Source: a bacterium
Lineage (GTDB): Bacteria > Armatimonadota > Zipacnadia > Zipacnadales > Zipacnadaceae
Assembly: GCA_030615605.1 (NCBI GenBank)
Contig: JAUWYY010000012.1
Coordinates: 1 to 64,000, forward strand
DNA: 64,000 nt
Reading direction: 5' to 3'
A program made the position numbers and the translations under genes. Of this stretch, positions 35,600-46,962 are shown one piece after another. The notes under the pieces are model-generated. The model was not told the DNA's origin, searched no databases, and worked only from the letters and a program-made list of their open reading frames with translations. Every line of letters starts with the position of its first letter. The first letter of the stretch is position 1.

Positions 35600-37318
35600 A
35601 TGAGCAACATCCAGCGACTTGCTTCACAGATCGAAGTGTCCGCGAAGGTGCCGACTTTCGGAGTTTGTGCGACCAGTGACCCGCGTATTGATGAGCAATC
35701 GCGGCAGCGCTGTGTCAACATTACTGAAATGACCGCCAACGTCATCGGTGAAGCTGTGCAGATGCCCGATGGTACTCCGGCAAGTGTGGTCTACTCGCCC
35801 ATTCTCATTGACGGCGAGCCGCAGGCCGATATGGTCGCCCGCCAGTTCAAGGAGGCCGGAGTTGACGCTATTGTCTGCGTACCGGACACCTGGGCATTTC
35901 CTCAGCCCAGCTTGATCTCGTTGATCGCGCAGTTTCCGAAAGATATCCCGCTTAATCTGACCTGTGGGAACTCGGGGCCCAAGCCGGGGGTCGTCTTCGT
36001 CCACGCCTGTAGCGGCGCCATATCCCAGTACGGCAAGCTAGTACATATCAATGTGGGCACCTGGCCGGATACCGGAATGAATCCGCAGATGACCCCCGAG
36101 ACGGCTGAGGCCCTCATTGACTGGTGCTACGCAGCGATGACTTACAGCGGATTGCGGGGTCGGCGCGTCGTCATCTTTGGGCACGATTCAATGGGTATGG
36201 AAACCGCCCTGCAGCACGTCATCCCCATCCGCAACCTGCTCGGGCTGGAGATTACCCGTCTGGATATGAAGCTGCTGGCCGATATGTTGAGCAAGCAGGC
36301 CTACGACCCCGGCGAGCTTGATGAACTGCGCGGGTGGATTGAGCAGCACGTCGGCGACCGGGTAGAGATTCGTGACGACGAAGAAGAGGCCCGCTTCCGT
36401 CAGAGTCTCGCACTATATCTGGTTGTCCGCGACCTGATGGAGGATCTCAATGCGGTTGGGGGCGGCTTTATGAGCCAGTTGGAATGGGGTTCGGACGTGC
36501 GCGGAATTCATCTGCCTGTCGCGGACGTGATGGAGTCGCTGTTCAACTCCACTTTCGATCATACCGGCCGCAAGGCCCCTCTCCCCTATGCCACCGAAGC
36601 CGACGTGCAGGGCTTGCTCACGCAACTCTATTTCACCTGGCTCAGCGGCGGTAACCCCCCGCTGTTTATGGACTTCCGCAAGGTCTGGGAGCCCTGGGAG
36701 ATTGACCGCCTGGCCCACGAACTGGGCCTGGGCGAGGTAGAGCCGTCTGCGCTGTGGCGGCGCACTGGCTTTGTGGATGGCGACAACTCCGGCAGTGCTG
36801 CCTTTGACTGGGCCGCCGAGCCCGGTGCCAGCATCGAGCAGATTATGTCCCAGGTCAGCTTCCCGCTGGCCGATGAATTCTACTTCCCCGGCGGGGGCAA
36901 TTCGGTCAATTTCGTCTCGCCGGCAGGAATTGCGGGTATCGCCGGGCGCATGGCCTACAGCGCGATGAACAATATCTTTTCGCTCGTCTGGGATGAGGCC
37001 ACTACTGTAAGTCTGCCCGACAAGCTCACCCAGGCGGTCTGTGAGACATCTACGCCGACGTGGCCTCATACCTTCGTGGTCCCCAAGTACGCTACGATGG
37101 GCGAATATAAGCAGTTTGCCCCGGCCAATCATTTTCATATGACCTGGGATCTGCAGGTCTCGCGCCTGGAGTACTGGATGGACCTGGCCAACGTCCTATC
37201 CTGCACACCGTGGCAGGCCCGGGCCGACTATCTCGAGGGCACCGACCGGCCCACACCGCTGCTGTACATCATGAACGGCGGAGAGACTGCCACTAAATTA
37301 ACACTGGCCAAGCAGTAA
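35600..37318 (+). CDS. L-fucose/L-arabinose isomerase family protein
   Basis: 572 aa; VPTFGVCATSDPRIDEQSRQRCVNI...FGHDSMGMETALQH...NHFHMTWDLQVSRLEYWMDLANV. Confidence 0.8.
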   Translation: MSNIQRLASQIEVSAKVPTFGVCATSDPRIDEQSRQRCVNITEMTANVIGEAVQMPDGTPASVVYSPILIDGEPQADMVARQFKEAGVDAIVCVPDTWAFPQPSLISLIAQFPKDIPLNLTCGNSGPKPGVVFVHACSGAISQYGKLVHINVGTWPDTGMNPQMTPETAEALIDWCYAAMTYSGLRGRRVVIFGHDSMGMETALQHVIPIRNLLGLEITRLDMKLLADMLSKQAYDPGELDELRGWIEQHVGDRVEIRDDEEEARFRQSLALYLVVRDLMEDLNAVGGGFMSQLEWGSDVRGIHLPVADVMESLFNSTFDHTGRKAPLPYATEADVQGLLTQLYFTWLSGGNPPLFMDFRKVWEPWEIDRLAHELGLGEVEPSALWRRTGFVDGDNSGSAAFDWAAEPGASIEQIMSQVSFPLADEFYFPGGGNSVNFVSPAGIAGIAGRMAYSAMNNIFSLVWDEATTVSLPDKLTQAVCETSTPTWPHTFVVPKYATMGEYKQFAPANHFHMTWDLQVSRLEYWMDLANVLSCTPWQARADYLEGTDRPTPLLYIMNGGETATKLTLAKQ

Positions 37319-37355: not shown

Positions 37356-38552
37356 TCAGCTGTCCTCGGTTGCACGTTCGGCTTCCATCCAGAAGTATAG
37401 CTGGTGGAGCAGATTCACAAACAGATAAGTGCCCTGCCCAGTTCCGCTCGTAATCACACCAAGCCTCTTCATTCGCTGAATAAAGTTATCGAAAACCCTG
37501 ACCTCGTCTTCCGACAGAATCTCCAGGGCTTCTCTCCTCCGGAATTCTGCCCCAACCGGCAATCGCAATTGTACCAACTTGCGAAGAATGCTCCGGTATG
37601 TATCGCTCCTAATTGCTTTGAACACTTGGGGTTGGAGATGCTTTCGACCGACGATCTCCGCCGCGTCGAATACAGCACTCCTGGCATCCTCCACATCGAT
37701 TACTCCGTCGTCGTCGACGCGGAAGGCCGCATCCCCGATTTCGTGGGCCATTACAGGGAAGCCACCCGACATACGGAAGAAGATATCCAGCGCATCATCT
37801 TCCACGCTCACATCCACGCTTGAGAATGCTTTTTCGTAGAACTCCCTTGTTTCGTCCTCAGACCACGTACGGATTTCGACCACGTCAAAGACCCTTGCGA
37901 GTGAGGGTTGACACGCGATGAGCTCTTGCCGCCGTTCCTCAAGCCCCACGACCAAGACACACAAAGGAAGTGGCTGCTCAGAGGTAGCGATCTCGTCAGT
38001 TAAGCTCTTTAGCCAGTTCGCGAACTCTTCAGATTGTGAAAGACCGTTCACGTCATCCAGTATAAGAAGGATTCCCTCCTGCTCGTCAGTCATCTGTTGC
38101 ATCAGTCCGCGGAGCGCTCCCGGGAAGTCGCGAACAATCGCTCCCAAGTCATCCTCCGAAGCACGGAACTCAAACTCCAGCCCAAGCAGACCCACCTTCC
38201 GTACGTGTCTCCCCATCAGCTCGGTTAGCCTCATGTGCCACGGCCTCCCGATGCTCTCCTTGACAAGACGGTCCAATACTTTCTGCACCATTGCCTCGAG
38301 TGATCTCACACCTCCCAACTGAGCATGGACTCCTATGATCCCGTATTCCCGCTCGACCATAACCCTGACAAAGTGAGCTAGCGAAGTTTTTCCAATACCT
38401 CGTTCGCCGCTAAGAAACGCTACTTGCAGCCGACCGACCCGCACGCTGGCAACCTTTTGCATGAGTTCTTGGATTTCATCCCAGCGGCCCACAAAGAACT
38501 CTACAGAGACGGGCTGTCCAGGGCTAAAAGGACTGCTGATTCCTATAGCCAT
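37356..38552 (-). CDS. P-loop AAA ATPase (Orc1/Cdc6-like or STAND-like)
   Basis: FFVGRWDEIQELMQKV...FLSGERGIGKTSLAHFV (Walker A), ILLILDDVNGL (Walker B). Confidence 0.75.
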   Translation of the reverse strand: MAIGISSPFSPGQPVSVEFFVGRWDEIQELMQKVASVRVGRLQVAFLSGERGIGKTSLAHFVRVMVEREYGIIGVHAQLGGVRSLEAMVQKVLDRLVKESIGRPWHMRLTELMGRHVRKVGLLGLEFEFRASEDDLGAIVRDFPGALRGLMQQMTDEQEGILLILDDVNGLSQSEEFANWLKSLTDEIATSEQPLPLCVLVVGLEERRQELIACQPSLARVFDVVEIRTWSEDETREFYEKAFSSVDVSVEDDALDIFFRMSGGFPVMAHEIGDAAFRVDDDGVIDVEDARSAVFDAAEIVGRKHLQPQVFKAIRSDTYRSILRKLVQLRLPVGAEFRRREALEILSEDEVRVFDNFIQRMKRLGVITSGTGQGTYLFVNLLHQLYFWMEAERATEDS

Positions 38553-38978
38553 CTTGTGGCTCCTTTCCTCCTGTCGAGTACGCTTCTCTCCTGCTAGGTC
38601 GGGCAATGGTACAAATACTATGAATGGACCACGATTACTCGCGCTTGTTTCCGCACTCTCGACTTAGATATCACAGTAGTTTGTGGACGCGCAGAAGAAT
38701 ACCTCCTTATGCTATGAATCTTAATTCGCCCTTATGTCTAGTTTCCCCTGCTCTGCGCCGGGTTCCCATTGATATATGCAATCGGCATGCCAGTTGGTTG
38801 CCTGCACATAGATAACACTGGACGGGTGAATCTCCATTGGGAACTTCGACGGGTAAGCGAGGATGTCCTCTTAGCACAGAAGGACTATGCTTGATCGTGG
38901 CGAATTCGTATACTAGTACCGCATGTTAAGCTAAGCCTGAGAGGTACATAGCTGCTGGAATAGGAGCGCTGGAGTCCA

Positions 38979-39320
38979 ATGAAAACTCTCGCATACCTGA
39001 TAGGCGGATTGCTCGGGATTGTGGGCATTGTCTTTCTCATCGCCGGGATCAGTTGGGTCCGGGTGCAGTGGATAATCATCGGCCCAATACTTGTCGGGGT
39101 GGCCTTCTTTGTTGTATACATGGCGCGGACCAAGGTGCCCGACCAGCGCATTATCCAGGAGATTGATCTGTCCGGCGATGTCCACCCCGAGGAGATGACC
39201 TGTAACAACTGCGGAGGGCCCCTGGAACGGGACAGCATCTCGCTACGGGAGGGCGGAGTCTTTGTGGACTGCCCCTACTGCGGCACCTCCTACCAGATTG
39301 AGGAAGAGCCCAAATGGTGA
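38979..39320 (+). CDS. 2-TM membrane protein with C-terminal zinc ribbon
   Basis: Two hydrophobic helices, then MTCNNCGGPL...VDCPYCGTSYQIEEEPKW. Confidence 0.7.
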   Translation: MKTLAYLIGGLLGIVGIVFLIAGISWVRVQWIIIGPILVGVAFFVVYMARTKVPDQRIIQEIDLSGDVHPEEMTCNNCGGPLERDSISLREGGVFVDCPYCGTSYQIEEEPKW

Positions 39321-40735
39321 GCAGGATCGCGCAGGCTGCTGGACGGCTGGCAGGAGTAGTAAGTGATGATCTGCGCCGCTTTCGGGCACAGCTTTATGCG
39401 CTGCGACCCGCCAGCAGTTGCGTACCGGGTCTGTACACATACCGCATTACTGCTTCTGAAGGCCAGATGCGCCTGCATCTGCGCATTCACCAGGACTACA
39501 CAGGTCTGTTGCTAATCAACGGGCAGGAGGCAGTTCACCTGACGCCGACCGCAGCACATATGGCCAAGCTGGCGCTCGATGAGGTGCCCGCAGCAAGTGC
39601 GCTGGCTGCATTGGGACGATCATATCCGGAGGTGCCGCCGGACAGACTACGCGAAGATCTGCCGCGGATAACCGAGATGATAGGCACGCTCCGCCAGCCG
39701 ACATCAGGCTGTTCACTGTCTCAGATAGACACCGAAAAGACGGGGCTGTATAGCCACAGAGCACGTGCTCCCTACAAGGCTGACCTGGCCGTGCATTATG
39801 CCTGTAACAACAACTGCAGCCACTGTTATAACGAGCCAGGACGGCGGACTATGCTGTCCGTGCCGCTGGCCGATTGGAGGCGCATACTTCGCAAGCTGTT
39901 TGATATCGGAGTGCCTTACGTGATCTTCACTGGCGGCGAGCCAACGCTGCATCCGCATATTCTTGAGCTGATTGGCTATGCCGATAACTTAGGCCAGATT
40001 ACCGGTATGAATAGCAATGGCAGGCGGCTGGCCGACGCTGATTTTGCCACCCGCCTCAAAGAATCAGGCCTGGATCATATTCAGATAACACTTAACTCGC
40101 ATCGCCCTGACCTGCACAATCAGATCGTCGGGGCCAATGCGTATGACGAGACGATTGCCGGTCTGCGCAATGCCCTGGCCGCCAGACTGCATACTATCAC
40201 CAACACCACTCTGACCCAGGCTAACGCAGATGAAGCTCTGGAGATGGTGGACTTCCTGTGCGGGCTGGGTGTACGCACCTTTGCTATGAACGGTATGATC
40301 CATTCGGGGTGCGGGACGCGCCACGAGGGCACTTTGACCGAAAGCCAGTTGCGTCCACTGCTGGAGAAGGTTGCAGAGCGCGCCGCCGAGTACGGTATGC
40401 GCTTTCTGTGGTACACTCCCACGCAGTATTGCCGCCTCTCCCCTATCGAACTTGGACTGGGCCCGCGCACCTGCAACGCGGGGGAGTATTCAATCTGCAT
40501 CGAGCCTAACGGCGACGTCCTGCCCTGCCAGTCATACTACGAGAGCGCCGGCAATATACTTGACGACCCCTGGGACGAGATTTGGAACAGTGAGCTATTC
40601 CGTAGCTTCCGCTACCGCCGCGAAGAGCCGCAGGTAGCCGGCTTGCCTGAGAAGTGCTGGAACTGTGAGTTACTACGCGTCTGTGGCGGAGGCTGCCGGC
40701 TGAAGCGACACGCGCGGACCTCGGAGGTGAACTGA
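39314..40735 (+). CDS. radical SAM/SPASM peptide-modification-type enzyme with N-terminal PqqD/RRE-like region
   Basis: 473 aa; VHYACNNNCSHCYNEPG (CX3CX2C), FTGGEPTLHPHI, SPASM: TCNAGEYSICIEPNGDVLPCQSYYESAGNILDDPWDEIWNS...CWNCELLRVCGGGCR. Confidence 0.9.
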   Translation: MVSRIAQAAGRLAGVVSDDLRRFRAQLYALRPASSCVPGLYTYRITASEGQMRLHLRIHQDYTGLLLINGQEAVHLTPTAAHMAKLALDEVPAASALAALGRSYPEVPPDRLREDLPRITEMIGTLRQPTSGCSLSQIDTEKTGLYSHRARAPYKADLAVHYACNNNCSHCYNEPGRRTMLSVPLADWRRILRKLFDIGVPYVIFTGGEPTLHPHILELIGYADNLGQITGMNSNGRRLADADFATRLKESGLDHIQITLNSHRPDLHNQIVGANAYDETIAGLRNALAARLHTITNTTLTQANADEALEMVDFLCGLGVRTFAMNGMIHSGCGTRHEGTLTESQLRPLLEKVAERAAEYGMRFLWYTPTQYCRLSPIELGLGPRTCNAGEYSICIEPNGDVLPCQSYYESAGNILDDPWDEIWNSELFRSFRYRREEPQVAGLPEKCWNCELLRVCGGGCRLKRHARTSEVN

Positions 40736-40737
40736 TC

Positions 40738-42057
40738 ATGACGCAGGCCTCTCTACTGCAGAGATTCATTGACTCGCTCAAGATACGACCAGCCAGCCCG
40801 TCTGTCGGGCCGGAACCGGGTCTGTATCACTATGAGTATCTGGAGAAGGAGTGGCCGACGCGATTTCATCTGCGCATTGATCCCGACGGACAGGGTCTGC
40901 TGCTGGCCAATGCCGCCCAGGCGGCGATGCTATCGGCCAGCGGCGTGCTGATGGGAAAGGGACTGCTGGAAGGCTGGAGCAATGATGAAATCGTTGCCGA
41001 GGTCGCGGCGGCATTTCCTGGGGCCACGGCTGAGCAAATCGCCGCCGACCTAGCTGAGGTTCGTGCATTGATTGCCGACCTCGGCACGCCCGGCGACAAC
41101 TATCCGATCTCTAATCTGGACGATCCCTATGCCGCGACGCGCAGTCGAATGCTGGCCGCGCCACTGCGGGCAGATGTTGTGCCGGGCGAACCTGAACAGA
41201 CCAAACAGATCCTGCAGCAACTTTGGGAGGCCGGCATCCCTCAGGCCACTATACTTGTTCAGTCCGAGGCCACTAGCGAGACTGTTGTCCGGATAGTCGA
41301 GAGCGCCGAGGACCTCGGGATGATCGCCGGGCTGCGTACTCTGGCTCATTGGCTACCCGCCGATGTCCTTGATGAAGCCGCCAATGCCGGGCTTGATCAT
41401 CTGACCCTGGCCTACATCTCCCCTATCGCCCAGCAGCACGATGCGCTGACCGCTGCGGGTGACCATGACCTGGTACTGCGACACTTTGCTCGCTGCCACG
41501 AAGTGGAGCTGTGCCCCGTCGCGCAGGTTCCGCTGCTCCGCGATAATGTAGACGGGCTTGAGACTCTCATCGCCGATCTGGGCGAGCGGGGCGTTACCAA
41601 TATCTCATTCTTCGCACTGGCGTGCCCCGACGATGACCAAGCCGCCCGCCAGGTAGGCGCTCTGTCTGGCTCGACGCTGCCGCAGGTGGCTACCACAATC
41701 AACGAAGCTGCGGAGGCTGCCCAGGTGCGTTATCTGTGGGAGCCGCCAGTGCGGTTTGATGTGACCAAGTCGCTGAGCGACCATATCGTTGCCGGGCCGC
41801 GCGCCGCCGGTGATGTGAGCATCCGGGTTGACTCAGATGGTACCGTCTACCCGGCGCGGGGGCCGCGCAGAGCAGCAGGTAACATTTTGCACGACGACTG
41901 GGAGCAGATCTGGCGCAGTCCCTGCTTTGCCCGCTACGGCGAGCGGCTGGCCGCCCCGACGCGCTGCGCAGATTGCCCGGATCTACCCATCTGTGCCGCG
42001 GACTGTCCGCGCGACCCCCGTGGCTGGAGCGATGATACCACAGGTGGTGATGAGTGA
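40738..42057 (+). CDS. radical SAM-like/SPASM paralogue lacking the CX3CX2C motif (putative pseudoenzyme partner)
   Basis: 439 aa; N-term PGLYHYEYLEKEWPTRFHLRIDPDGQGLLLAN aligns with PGLYTYRITASEGQMRLHLRIHQDYTGLLLIN of the upstream gene; C-term AAGNILHDDWEQIWRS...RCADCPDLPICAADCPRDPRG. Confidence 0.8.
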   Translation: MTQASLLQRFIDSLKIRPASPSVGPEPGLYHYEYLEKEWPTRFHLRIDPDGQGLLLANAAQAAMLSASGVLMGKGLLEGWSNDEIVAEVAAAFPGATAEQIAADLAEVRALIADLGTPGDNYPISNLDDPYAATRSRMLAAPLRADVVPGEPEQTKQILQQLWEAGIPQATILVQSEATSETVVRIVESAEDLGMIAGLRTLAHWLPADVLDEAANAGLDHLTLAYISPIAQQHDALTAAGDHDLVLRHFARCHEVELCPVAQVPLLRDNVDGLETLIADLGERGVTNISFFALACPDDDQAARQVGALSGSTLPQVATTINEAAEAAQVRYLWEPPVRFDVTKSLSDHIVAGPRAAGDVSIRVDSDGTVYPARGPRRAAGNILHDDWEQIWRSPCFARYGERLAAPTRCADCPDLPICAADCPRDPRGWSDDTTGGDE

Positions 42058-43841
42058 TGAGGCGTTACTTGATTGCAGCCCTGATTCTGGTACTGGTGGC
42101 TGGGACAGCGAGTTGGGCGCAAAACTACTCCTTCTCAGTCCCCCGTATGCTCCTGGAGGTCACTCCCAACAGCGATGCCTCAGTGACCCTGGACTATACA
42201 ATAGAGTTCTACTGCCAGCAAGGCGCCCATCCCATTGATGTCGTAGACGTCGGCCTACCCCATGAAGACTACGATATCAGCAATATGCAGGCAAGCATTG
42301 GCGGTTATGCTGCAAGTGATATTCGCAAGTCGCAAGAGATAGCTTGCGGCGTGGAGGTCCATCTGGATCCCTATCCCATACAACCTGGCCAAAGCGGCGA
42401 GTTTCACTTCAGTGCCACGATGCCTAACCTTGTCTTCCAGGACACCACCAACAAGGATAACGCCTCACTGCAGATCACGCCCACATGGTTTGATGCAGAT
42501 TTGCTGCAGGGCTCCACACAGTTGAATGTGGTTGTGTACCTCCCGCAATCGGTCAAGCTCGACGAAGCTCTGTATCAGAAAAAGCCGTTTAGCGACAAGC
42601 TGCAGCTACAGAATAGAAATGCCGTTGTGTGGCGCTGGGAGCAGACGCGGATGGATGACCGGCACCCGGTGGGGGTCTCCTTCCCCCAGCGCGACCTGGA
42701 GCGAGTAGCGCCCATGACGAAGCTGATGCTGGTGGGCAAGTGGTGGCGGGACAATCCCACCATCCGCTTCTTCTGGGCCATAGGCCTATTTGTGCTCTTT
42801 GGCTTCATCTTCTTTCGTCTGACCAGCGGGACCGGAGTAACCGTCTTTATACTTCTGCTGGGCGTCTCGGCCATCACCTTCGTGACGCACCCCTTCCTCG
42901 AAGCAATCGCGCTGCCGGTGCTCTTGTTCATCTGGTGGGTCGGTGAGCGTAGCCAAGTGGGCCGTCGGCACAAGTACCTCCCCCCCATCGCCTCAGTGGA
43001 ACACGGCGGCATCAAGCGGGGTCTGACGGTACCTGGGGCAGCAGTAGTAATGGAGTTGCCGCTGGGCAAGGTACTCACGCTGGTCGTCTTCGGCCTGCTG
43101 AAGAAAGACATCGTCCGGCAGGTTCAGGCTGATCCTCTGGCGCTGGAGCTGGTTGAAGATTACCACGGGAGCCGATCTGAGCGGCAGGCCACTGCTCGGG
43201 AAAACGGCACCGTCATCCACGCATACGAACAGCCTTTCCTGGACGTCTTTGAAGAGAATCCGGGAGTGCCCATTGAAGATTTGAACGTGCAGGAGCCAAT
43301 GAAGGGCCTGATCGAGAAGGCCGCCGAGCGGATGAGCGGGTTCAATCTCCCGCAGACTCGCGAGTATTACCGCTCGATTGTACACGGGGCCTGGACGAAG
43401 GCCAAGGCCATCGGCGACCTCAGCGAGCGGACCCAGTTCGTGGACGAGAACTTCCTGTGGCTGCTGCTGGATGATGGTTACGACGAGAGCTTCAATACCT
43501 GGTACGGTCACGGCTACCACTATCACCCCACCTGGACGCGAGGCGGGGCCGGAGCTGGCCTGCCCGCACCGGTGACAACCGGAGGCCGCACCACCACCGG
43601 AGACGTAGCCGCCTCCTTCGCCGGATGGTCGGAGAACGTCACTGGCAGGCTGGCCAACACACTTGACCCAGTATCCCTGGGTACCGCCGGGCCACCCGGA
43701 ATTGACCTCTCCGGCGTGGATCGGGTCACCCTTGATGTGCTCGAATCTATGGCGGAGAGCTCGGGAAGCGGAGGCGGCGGAGGCGGCTGTGCTTGTGCGG
43801 GATGCGCCTGTGCCTGTGCTTGTGCCGGTGGTGGGAGATGA
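42057..43841 (+). CDS. signal-peptide/TM membrane protein with Gly-Cys-Ala repeat C-terminal tail
   Basis: MRRYLIAALILVLVAGTASWA..., central TM helices, ...SGSGGGGGGCACAGCACACACAGGGR* (alternative GTG start at 42054). Confidence 0.85.
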   Translation: MRRYLIAALILVLVAGTASWAQNYSFSVPRMLLEVTPNSDASVTLDYTIEFYCQQGAHPIDVVDVGLPHEDYDISNMQASIGGYAASDIRKSQEIACGVEVHLDPYPIQPGQSGEFHFSATMPNLVFQDTTNKDNASLQITPTWFDADLLQGSTQLNVVVYLPQSVKLDEALYQKKPFSDKLQLQNRNAVVWRWEQTRMDDRHPVGVSFPQRDLERVAPMTKLMLVGKWWRDNPTIRFFWAIGLFVLFGFIFFRLTSGTGVTVFILLLGVSAITFVTHPFLEAIALPVLLFIWWVGERSQVGRRHKYLPPIASVEHGGIKRGLTVPGAAVVMELPLGKVLTLVVFGLLKKDIVRQVQADPLALELVEDYHGSRSERQATARENGTVIHAYEQPFLDVFEENPGVPIEDLNVQEPMKGLIEKAAERMSGFNLPQTREYYRSIVHGAWTKAKAIGDLSERTQFVDENFLWLLLDDGYDESFNTWYGHGYHYHPTWTRGGAGAGLPAPVTTGGRTTTGDVAASFAGWSENVTGRLANTLDPVSLGTAGPPGIDLSGVDRVTLDVLESMAESSGSGGGGGGCACAGCACACACAGGGR

Positions 43842-44581
43842 GTTCGCCGGACCAGGATGAGCCAGGTTGGCCGGATTTGCCCTCGGAAGCCCAGGTTCAA
43901 CAGCTCTCCCAGTGGCTGGCCGGGCCGCGCTCGCGGGCGCTGCGCCGGGCGGCCATCGGTCATCGCCGCCATGTGCTGGAAGTGGGCGCCGGTCATTGCG
44001 TTGTCACCAGCGAGCTTGCCCACCGCGGCAGCGGCCAGGTCATTGCGCTTGACCGTCGTGCTGATGTCCTGGCTGGCTGCACTGCGCCTGAAGTCAGCTT
44101 TGTGGCCGGGGACGCGCAGCAACTACCCTTCGCCGATGCCAGCTTTGACCTGGTCTTCTTCCAGAACACGCTGCTGTGGATCGCTAATCCAGGGACCGCT
44201 ATTGCCGAAAGCATGCGGGTGCTGCAATCAGGTGGCGCAGTTGTGGCGCTGGAACCCGACTACGGAGGTATGATGGAGTATCCTGATTGGGGCATCCGCG
44301 AACTGTGGATTAGCGGATTGTCTCAGGCCGGTGCCGATCCTCTAGTCGGCCGTAAGCTGCCCGGGCTGTGCGAAGCGGCTGGGATAGAGACGTGGGTGGA
44401 GCTAGTACATATTCCCCAGGCAGCCCAGGCCCAGACGCTGAGCTTGCTAGATGACCTTCCTCTGACCGACAATCAACACCAAATCGCTCAGAATGTGCAT
44501 GGCTATATCGAAAGAGCCAACGGCGACTGGGCCGTATTCCTGCACGTGCCCTACTTCCTCATCGTGGCAACGAAGCCCTGA
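43838..44581 (+). CDS. class I SAM-dependent methyltransferase
   Basis: Start MSSPDQDEPG overlaps upstream stop (ATGA); HVLEVGAGHCVVTSELAHRGSGQVIALDRR...LPFADASFDLVFFQNTLLW. Confidence 0.9.
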   Translation: MSSPDQDEPGWPDLPSEAQVQQLSQWLAGPRSRALRRAAIGHRRHVLEVGAGHCVVTSELAHRGSGQVIALDRRADVLAGCTAPEVSFVAGDAQQLPFADASFDLVFFQNTLLWIANPGTAIAESMRVLQSGGAVVALEPDYGGMMEYPDWGIRELWISGLSQAGADPLVGRKLPGLCEAAGIETWVELVHIPQAAQAQTLSLLDDLPLTDNQHQIAQNVHGYIERANGDWAVFLHVPYFLIVATKP

Positions 44582-46272: not shown

Positions 46273-46962
46273 TCAGTCAGTCTCTCTGCGCCGGCGGACA
46301 GCCGCCCCCAGACTCATTAGGCCCAGGGCTAGCATAGCCATGGTGCTGGGTTCCGGGACATAGGAGTCGGGACGCAGAATGTGTCCGTCCAGCGAGCCGT
46401 CGCTGGGCGGGAGGAGGGGGTCGTCGAGTAGGAAGCCGCTGTTCCAAAATTGGTTAAGGCCTTCCCCGCCTGCCTGACCATCTTTTGCATAGAAGTCGCC
46501 CCACACCGGCAGTCGATTGCTGGTGAACTCGACGGTAAAGGTTGTCCCCCAGGCGTCGTCGAATTTCGTGCCGTACAGGTCACCGGGCATGTCCGGGTTA
46601 CCTGATCCGGGGTAAAACCATTCGCCGATGAATGCCTCCGTATAGTCCCCAGTGATGTCCCAGATGTCGCCCTCCGGGAGTGGCTCGGAGGTTTCCATAA
46701 TAAAGTGACTGACGGCCCCATCGTAGACGCGGATTTCGTATTGGTAGTGGTAGAAGCCAGCCTCCGTTTCGGTGATCCACCATTCTATCTCGGCGGGAAA
46801 CCAGTTCTCATCATCACCCGGGTCAATCACCCAGATGCCCGTGCCGTCGTCGGACGTGCCAGTCAACTGACCGTGATAGGTCGTGTCCGTCATTGCAGTA
46901 ATACCAGTCAGCAACACTACCGCCAGCATGGCGGCGAGCAACATATAACCGTATCTTGTCAT
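46273..46962 (-). CDS. PEP-CTERM sorting-domain protein
   Basis: Signal peptide plus C-terminal YVPEPSTMAMLALGLMSLGAAVRRRRETD. Confidence 0.9.
   Translation of the reverse strand: MTRYGYMLLAAMLAVVLLTGITAMTDTTYHGQLTGTSDDGTGIWVIDPGDDENWFPAEIEWWITETEAGFYHYQYEIRVYDGAVSHFIMETSEPLPEGDIWDITGDYTEAFIGEWFYPGSGNPDMPGDLYGTKFDDAWGTTFTVEFTSNRLPVWGDFYAKDGQAGGEGLNQFWNSGFLLDDPLLPPSDGSLDGHILRPDSYVPEPSTMAMLALGLMSLGAAVRRRRETD

Follow-up and report, generated by a model that had tools for sequence, protein, structure and literature searches.

Why would a membrane protein end in alternating cysteines and alanines? In the window (the whole stretch of 64,000 nucleotides that was analysed, from a bacterium of the Armatimonadota), the frame at 42057-43841 (+) encodes a membrane protein of 594 amino acids that ends in ...GSGGGGGGCACAGCACACACAGGGR, followed by a TGA stop codon. 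A preliminary description had proposed a cysteine-rich C-terminal tail with six cysteines after a glycine linker, and the frame bears this out. A Ser/Gly linker (SGSGGGGGG, residues 569-577, at 43761-43787 (+); predicted to be disordered, with pLDDT of 30-40) leads into the tail itself (CACAGCACACACAGGGR, residues 578-594, at 43788-43838 (+)). The alternation, which had been called strict, is not quite so: the spacing is mostly CxC, but CACA is followed by a single glycine and then by CACACACA, with one CxxC among the CxC spacings. Below, we argue that this tail is very likely to be modified chemically, and that it is probably the built-in substrate of a radical SAM/SPASM enzyme that is encoded two genes upstream.

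The tail gene belongs to a tight operon of five genes (38979-44581), all on the + strand, which abut or overlap. A small membrane-anchored zinc-ribbon protein (38979-39320 (+); 113 amino acids, with two hydrophobic helices and CNNC..CPYC) is followed by the radical SAM/SPASM enzyme (39314-40735 (+)), whose gene starts within the zinc-ribbon gene. Next comes a pseudo-radical-SAM/SPASM partner (40738-42057 (+)) that has lost the CX3CX2C motif and has weak matches to the Pfam families SPASM (8.7e-06) and PqqD (0.01). The ATG of the tail gene overlaps the stop codon of this gene, and the stop codon of the tail gene is in turn overlapped (ATGA) by the start of a class I SAM-dependent methyltransferase (43838-44581 (+); Methyltransf_11, 5.8e-19). 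The tail had been described as lying next to a SPASM enzyme. The adjacent upstream gene does encode a SPASM-like C-terminus, but without CX3CX2C, and the competent enzyme lies one gene further. Outside the operon, we found no conserved neighbours that were common to different phyla.

We then considered whether the tail could be functionless low-complexity sequence that arose by slippage or codon bias. It is a simple two-residue repeat after a run of glycines, and a protein of the TIGR04222 type has a glycine-rich low-complexity tail. But the codons are mixed even within the window gene (TGT and TGC for cysteine; GCT, GCG, and GCC for alanine), and across 37 homologous tails, every codon varies synonymously while the peptide is fixed. 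(The regular expression for this set demanded the peptide, but 30 Armatimonadota members came from whole-protein similarity.) The DNA pattern of the tail is found in 37 of 291 Armatimonadota genomes, nearly always in one copy per genome, while the reversed control pattern is found in none of the 291, so the tail is not due to chance. Together with conservation across domains of life, these observations lead us to reject slippage or low complexity, whose probability is close to nil. The earlier view that selection acts on the peptide holds up.

A search with the whole protein, which was blind to the tail, found the protein in 37 of 101 related genomes. Every full-length Armatimonadota homologue whose C-terminus lies on its contig has the tail, with the ending CACA(CA)GCACACACAGGGR; a divergent member of the phylum (G053) ends in ACACACASCACACAGGGR. 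Among these tail-blind relatives, the tail is invariant, as compared to roughly 50-60% identity over the remaining protein. More broadly, nine consecutive residues (C585-G593) are invariant in an alignment of 43 bacterial and archaeal sequences that are overall as little as 25-45% identical to the window protein. This alignment spans Heimdallarchaeota, Methanomassiliicoccales, Thermoplasmatota, Chloroflexota, and Pirellulales. A caveat is that most cross-phylum members were picked by their tail pattern, so the variability of the tail outside of Armatimonadota and Lachnospiraceae is underestimated. Conservation within the membrane protein is highest in the tail. Loss of the tail from close homologues, which the preliminary description had named as evidence against a role in maturation, was not seen.

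Several lines of evidence tie the tail to the enzyme. First, among the 101 Armatimonadota relatives, 31 have both the enzyme and the tail, 2 have the enzyme only, 4 have the tail only, and 64 have neither (Fisher p = 2.6e-19). Both enzyme-only genomes can be explained: in one (G023), the contig stops before the tail, and the other (G053) has the variant tail. The four tail-only genomes are draft metagenome-assembled genomes (MAGs) in which the tail is close to the end of a contig. (The incompleteness of MAGs affects such absences.)

Second, we identified the enzyme in 12 of 150 Lachnospiraceae genomes, and all 12 have an adjacent tail gene (nine end in CACACAGGGRAGC and three in the SSGR variant CACACASSGRAGC). 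This test is independent of the tail.

Third, the preliminary description had suggested scanning genomes for the tail pattern and tabulating the neighbours. Among the matches listed from such a scan, which selected loci on the tail pattern, at least ~110 are genuine tail loci, and 86 of these have the enzyme in the locus DNA. (Chance matches in GC-rich genomes, such as those in Streptomyces and Oerskovia (L139 and L074), were left out of the counts.) Where the enzyme was not in the locus DNA, 15 of the 17 genomes that were tested carry it, again among the matches listed; the other two tail-bearing genomes (L116 and L178) had no enzyme at E ≤ 1e-60, and this absence is uncertain. The pair is also found in Heimdallarchaeota, Methanomassiliicoccales, Chloroflexota, and Pirellulales. 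In three Clostridial loci (L077, L079, and L176), two or three tail-protein genes lie beside a single radical SAM gene, and some of the tails have irregular CASS or CAHSS units. A tail that is kept nearly letter for letter and is nearly always beside a radical SAM enzyme is very probably a site of modification.

Fourth, the type of tail tracks the lineage of the enzyme. The next-best homologues of the enzyme, in eight Armatimonadota genomes, are about 30-35% identical to it and are associated with another cysteine-repeat tail. These sister proteins (L216:6853-8580, L219, L220, L221, L222, L223, and L245-L250) are membrane proteins that end in Cys-His-Ser-Ala repeats (...DACHSACHSACHSACVHDACHS...ACVSSF or ...ACVSGGAR/H), and profiles identify them as homologues of the window protein (E values down to 1e-26). 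The (ACHS)n pattern is present in 13 of 291 Armatimonadota genomes; the enzyme is within about 1.5 kb in 12 of these and is on another contig in the thirteenth. All 13 ACHS-paired enzymes group together in one clade (support 0.977) that excludes every CA-paired enzyme, which is what one would predict for a tail that serves as the substrate. Thus the proposal that the tail is a maturation substrate of the SPASM enzyme is supported by its distribution, its gene order, and its sequence type, on genetic and structural grounds.

Is the enzyme suited to such a role? The window enzyme matches Radical_SAM (1.8e-24) and SPASM (1e-12) in Pfam, as do all 44 of the family's enzymes that we compared, and CX3CX2C (C164/C168/C171) is invariant among 44 homologues. 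By sequence alone, the window enzyme has no match to PqqD, while PqqD is matched in 6 of the 44 enzymes and exceeds the Pfam cut-off in a Heimdallarchaeota enzyme (L070). In the AlphaFold model of the window enzyme (pLDDT 88.8), N-terminal beta strands and three helices form a PqqD/RRE-like domain, which is followed by the radical SAM barrel and then by the SPASM region. The best folds in the PDB are SkfB, SuiB (both free and peptide-bound), anSME, CteB (5why), and PqqE, and the alignment to SuiB spans about 460 columns. The Pfam matches in the family, the model, and the SuiB alignment all point to an RRE (PqqD-like) recognition domain. With CX3CX2C, SPASM, and a co-conserved neighbouring target peptide, the locus has the features of a peptide maturase cassette.

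These features also bear on whether the tail is instead a metal or cluster thiolate site (metallothionein-like, Fe-S, or Zn/Cu) with unmodified cysteines, in which case the radical SAM enzyme would act elsewhere or would aid in cluster assembly. CxC repeats are typical of metal-thiolate proteins, histidines lie beside the cysteines in some Clostridial tails and in the sister (ACHS)n tails, and the operon includes a zinc-ribbon protein. But a simple metal site would not be expected to be so strictly coupled to a peptide maturase fold of the RRE type. Also, the residue after cysteine is alanine in 977 of the ~1,098 cases that were counted, which, from general knowledge, is unusually strict for metallothioneins. 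We consider a metal site to be quite improbable.

The enzyme does not belong to any specific family in NCBIfam or Pfam. Its best scores to the SPASM equivalogs of NCBIfam (SkfB, AlbA, PqqE, GeoRSP, and ACGX) are around 130-140 bits, as compared to cut-offs of about 300-850 bits. By its name, rSAM_ACGX (TIGR04340) would combine a SPASM enzyme with a cysteine repeat, but the window enzyme scores just 79 bits and the ACHS-paired enzymes score 83-112 bits, which is under the 400-bit cut-off, so we rejected membership.

Cassettes of a radical SAM/SPASM enzyme and a target peptide, including those for sactipeptides, SCIFF/ranthipeptides, mycofactocin, and TvgA/TvgB, reportedly form a class (the Haft and Basu 2011 class). 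As in that class, the window has an RRE-bearing SPASM radical SAM enzyme that adjoins a conserved, cysteine-rich or repetitive target. Likewise, TvgB acts on a repeated motif, TVGG (PMC9062424). Whereas the class has small free precursors, the enzyme in the window would act on the C-terminal tail of an integral membrane protein of about 600 amino acids, and the system is conserved across archaea and bacteria without a curated family model. The form of a sactipeptide or ranthipeptide RiPP precursor does not fit either: the tail ends a 594-residue membrane protein and there is no small leader-core peptide. Some SPASM radical SAM enzymes modify proteins: QhpD forms thioether cross-links in the gamma subunit of quinohemoprotein amine dehydrogenase, and anSME forms formylglycine in sulfatases. 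We liken the window enzyme to these from general knowledge (anSME is also a fold match), although the tail here is an appendage of a membrane protein. Formylglycine formation as in sulfatases was rejected, as the tail has no CxAxR motif.

What might the modification be? SkfB and CteB, which form thioethers, and SuiB, which matures streptide, combine radical SAM, SPASM, and an N-terminal recognition domain, and are among the best folds. They are just 16-22% identical to the window enzyme, act on other substrates, and belong to equivalogs whose cut-offs are far above its scores. Thioether-forming maturases are among the closest folds and cysteine is the invariant element, so we tentatively favor thioether (sactionine-like) links. 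Alternatively, the enzyme might alter single residues, by epimerizing alpha carbons or by another C-H oxidation, to give a repetitive modified strand without cross-links. An alternation of two residues would suit modification of every other residue, and the structure of the epimerase EpeE is among the fold matches, but it is a weak match at rank 50, behind SkfB, SuiB, anSME, and CteB. If only the alanines were modified, then six conserved cysteines would be superfluous, and the sister (ACHS)n tails do not alternate. Single-residue changes therefore seem unlikely. Several cysteines for auxiliary clusters are missing from the SPASM region in Clostridia, so the chemistry might vary by clade.

The model of the tail protein (pLDDT 84.9) has a signal helix, an extracytoplasmic beta domain, membrane helices, and a helical cytoplasmic domain; hydrophobic segments span residues 3-23 and about 234-293. 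Judging from hydropathy and from basic residues past the membrane segment, the C-terminus is probably cytoplasmic, which is the side where the enzyme is expected. The predicted ectodomain resembles the N-domains of M1 aminopeptidases and subunits of oligosaccharyltransferase. The protein falls outside all families in NCBIfam and Pfam. A tail protein from Lachnospiraceae is weakly similar to the N-terminal domain of DUF2207 (PF09972; E = 0.014), and archaeal and ACHS-type members are weakly similar to TIGR04222, but all of these scores are below the curated cut-offs, so we rejected both assignments. (A bona fide member of TIGR04222 in Streptomyces has a glycine-rich end without cysteines.)

In the model, the protein ends with a short helix (residues 552-568, ...SGVDRVTLDVLESMAES, at 43710-43760 (+)), followed by the disordered linker and tail. 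A motif at this helix, LSGxDkvTxdxLxxxaeSs, is kept in Armatimonadota, Chloroflexota, and Pirellulales, and the helix is a candidate for a built-in segment that the maturase would recognize. In Clostridia, CACACAGGGR is followed by a conserved AGC[ST]xKDF[YF] (as in L069:1973-3448) and the protein ends about 20-35 residues on; in Armatimonadota and archaea, this follower is absent and the protein mostly stops at GGGR. The follower is a candidate recognition or cleavage sequence. We propose that the RRE-like domain of the enzyme would dock on the conserved sequence that flanks the tail: the predicted helix before the glycine linker in the window protein, and probably the C-terminal follower (AGC[ST]xKDFY) in Clostridia. 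The flexible linker would then pass the CA units one by one into the active site at the cytoplasmic face of the membrane. The likeliest product would be thioether cross-links within the tail, from the sulfur of cysteine to the alpha carbon of a neighbouring residue.

The pseudo-radical-SAM protein lacks CX3CX2C in all 33 of the orthologues that were checked, and at 23 bits, it is not a member of the pseudo-SAM/SPASM family TIGR04347 (cut-off 525 bits). Among the loci that we read, it co-occurs with the tail only in Armatimonadota, Chloroflexota, and Pirellulales. In one locus (L063:10085-12910), the radical SAM enzyme and the pseudo-radical-SAM protein are in one open frame of 942 amino acids, which supports the idea that they act together. 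The methyltransferase adjoins the tail gene in Armatimonadota, Chloroflexota, Pirellulales, Heimdallarchaeota, and Methanomassiliicoccales, and none was seen beside the Clostridial pairs that we read. Perhaps the pseudo-radical-SAM protein serves as an additional subunit for docking or scaffolding, and the methyltransferase as an optional tailoring enzyme. A conserved zinc-ribbon gene precedes the radical SAM gene in Armatimonadota, Pirellulales, Thermoplasmatota, and Methanomassiliicoccales; one of the tail proteins from Lachnospiraceae instead contains a zinc ribbon itself.

What would the modified tail be for? The carriers include anaerobic archaea and Clostridia and usually have a single copy, which argues against a secreted antibiotic, and such strict conservation across domains suggests a housekeeping-type role instead. 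The tail could be a prosthetic group, made by radical SAM chemistry at the cytoplasmic C-terminus of a class of archaeal and bacterial membrane proteins, with its grammar, (CA)n-GGGR or (ACHS)n, set by the clade of the enzyme. It would then be a cofactor or a structural device and not a secreted natural product, but we offer this as a conjecture. Most of what is known about radical SAM peptide maturases comes from small secreted RiPPs, along with a few protein cofactors. The lineage described here is linked to the tail of a membrane protein that is usually present in one copy, and its carriers include environmental bacteria, Asgard archaea, methanogens, and common gut Clostridia such as Gemmiger formicilis, of which the strain ATCC 27749 has the tail gene (L207). 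The system is widespread, has no curated family, and very probably involves chemical modification; its two tail grammars and two sister enzyme clades are a natural experiment in enzyme-substrate specificity. In the literature that we searched, mostly outside of subscription journals, we found no description of the tail protein or the enzyme, and nothing relevant on the tail motif, on SPASM with DUF2207, on ACGX, or on tail-modifying radical SAM enzymes.

Elsewhere in the window, the operon is flanked by genes at 35600-37318 (+) and 37356-38606 (-), for an L-fucose isomerase family protein and an AAA/STAND-type ATPase. Also, the protein encoded at 46273-46962 (-) has a sorting signal that resembles PEP-CTERM (VPEPSTMAMLALGLMSLGAAVRRRR).
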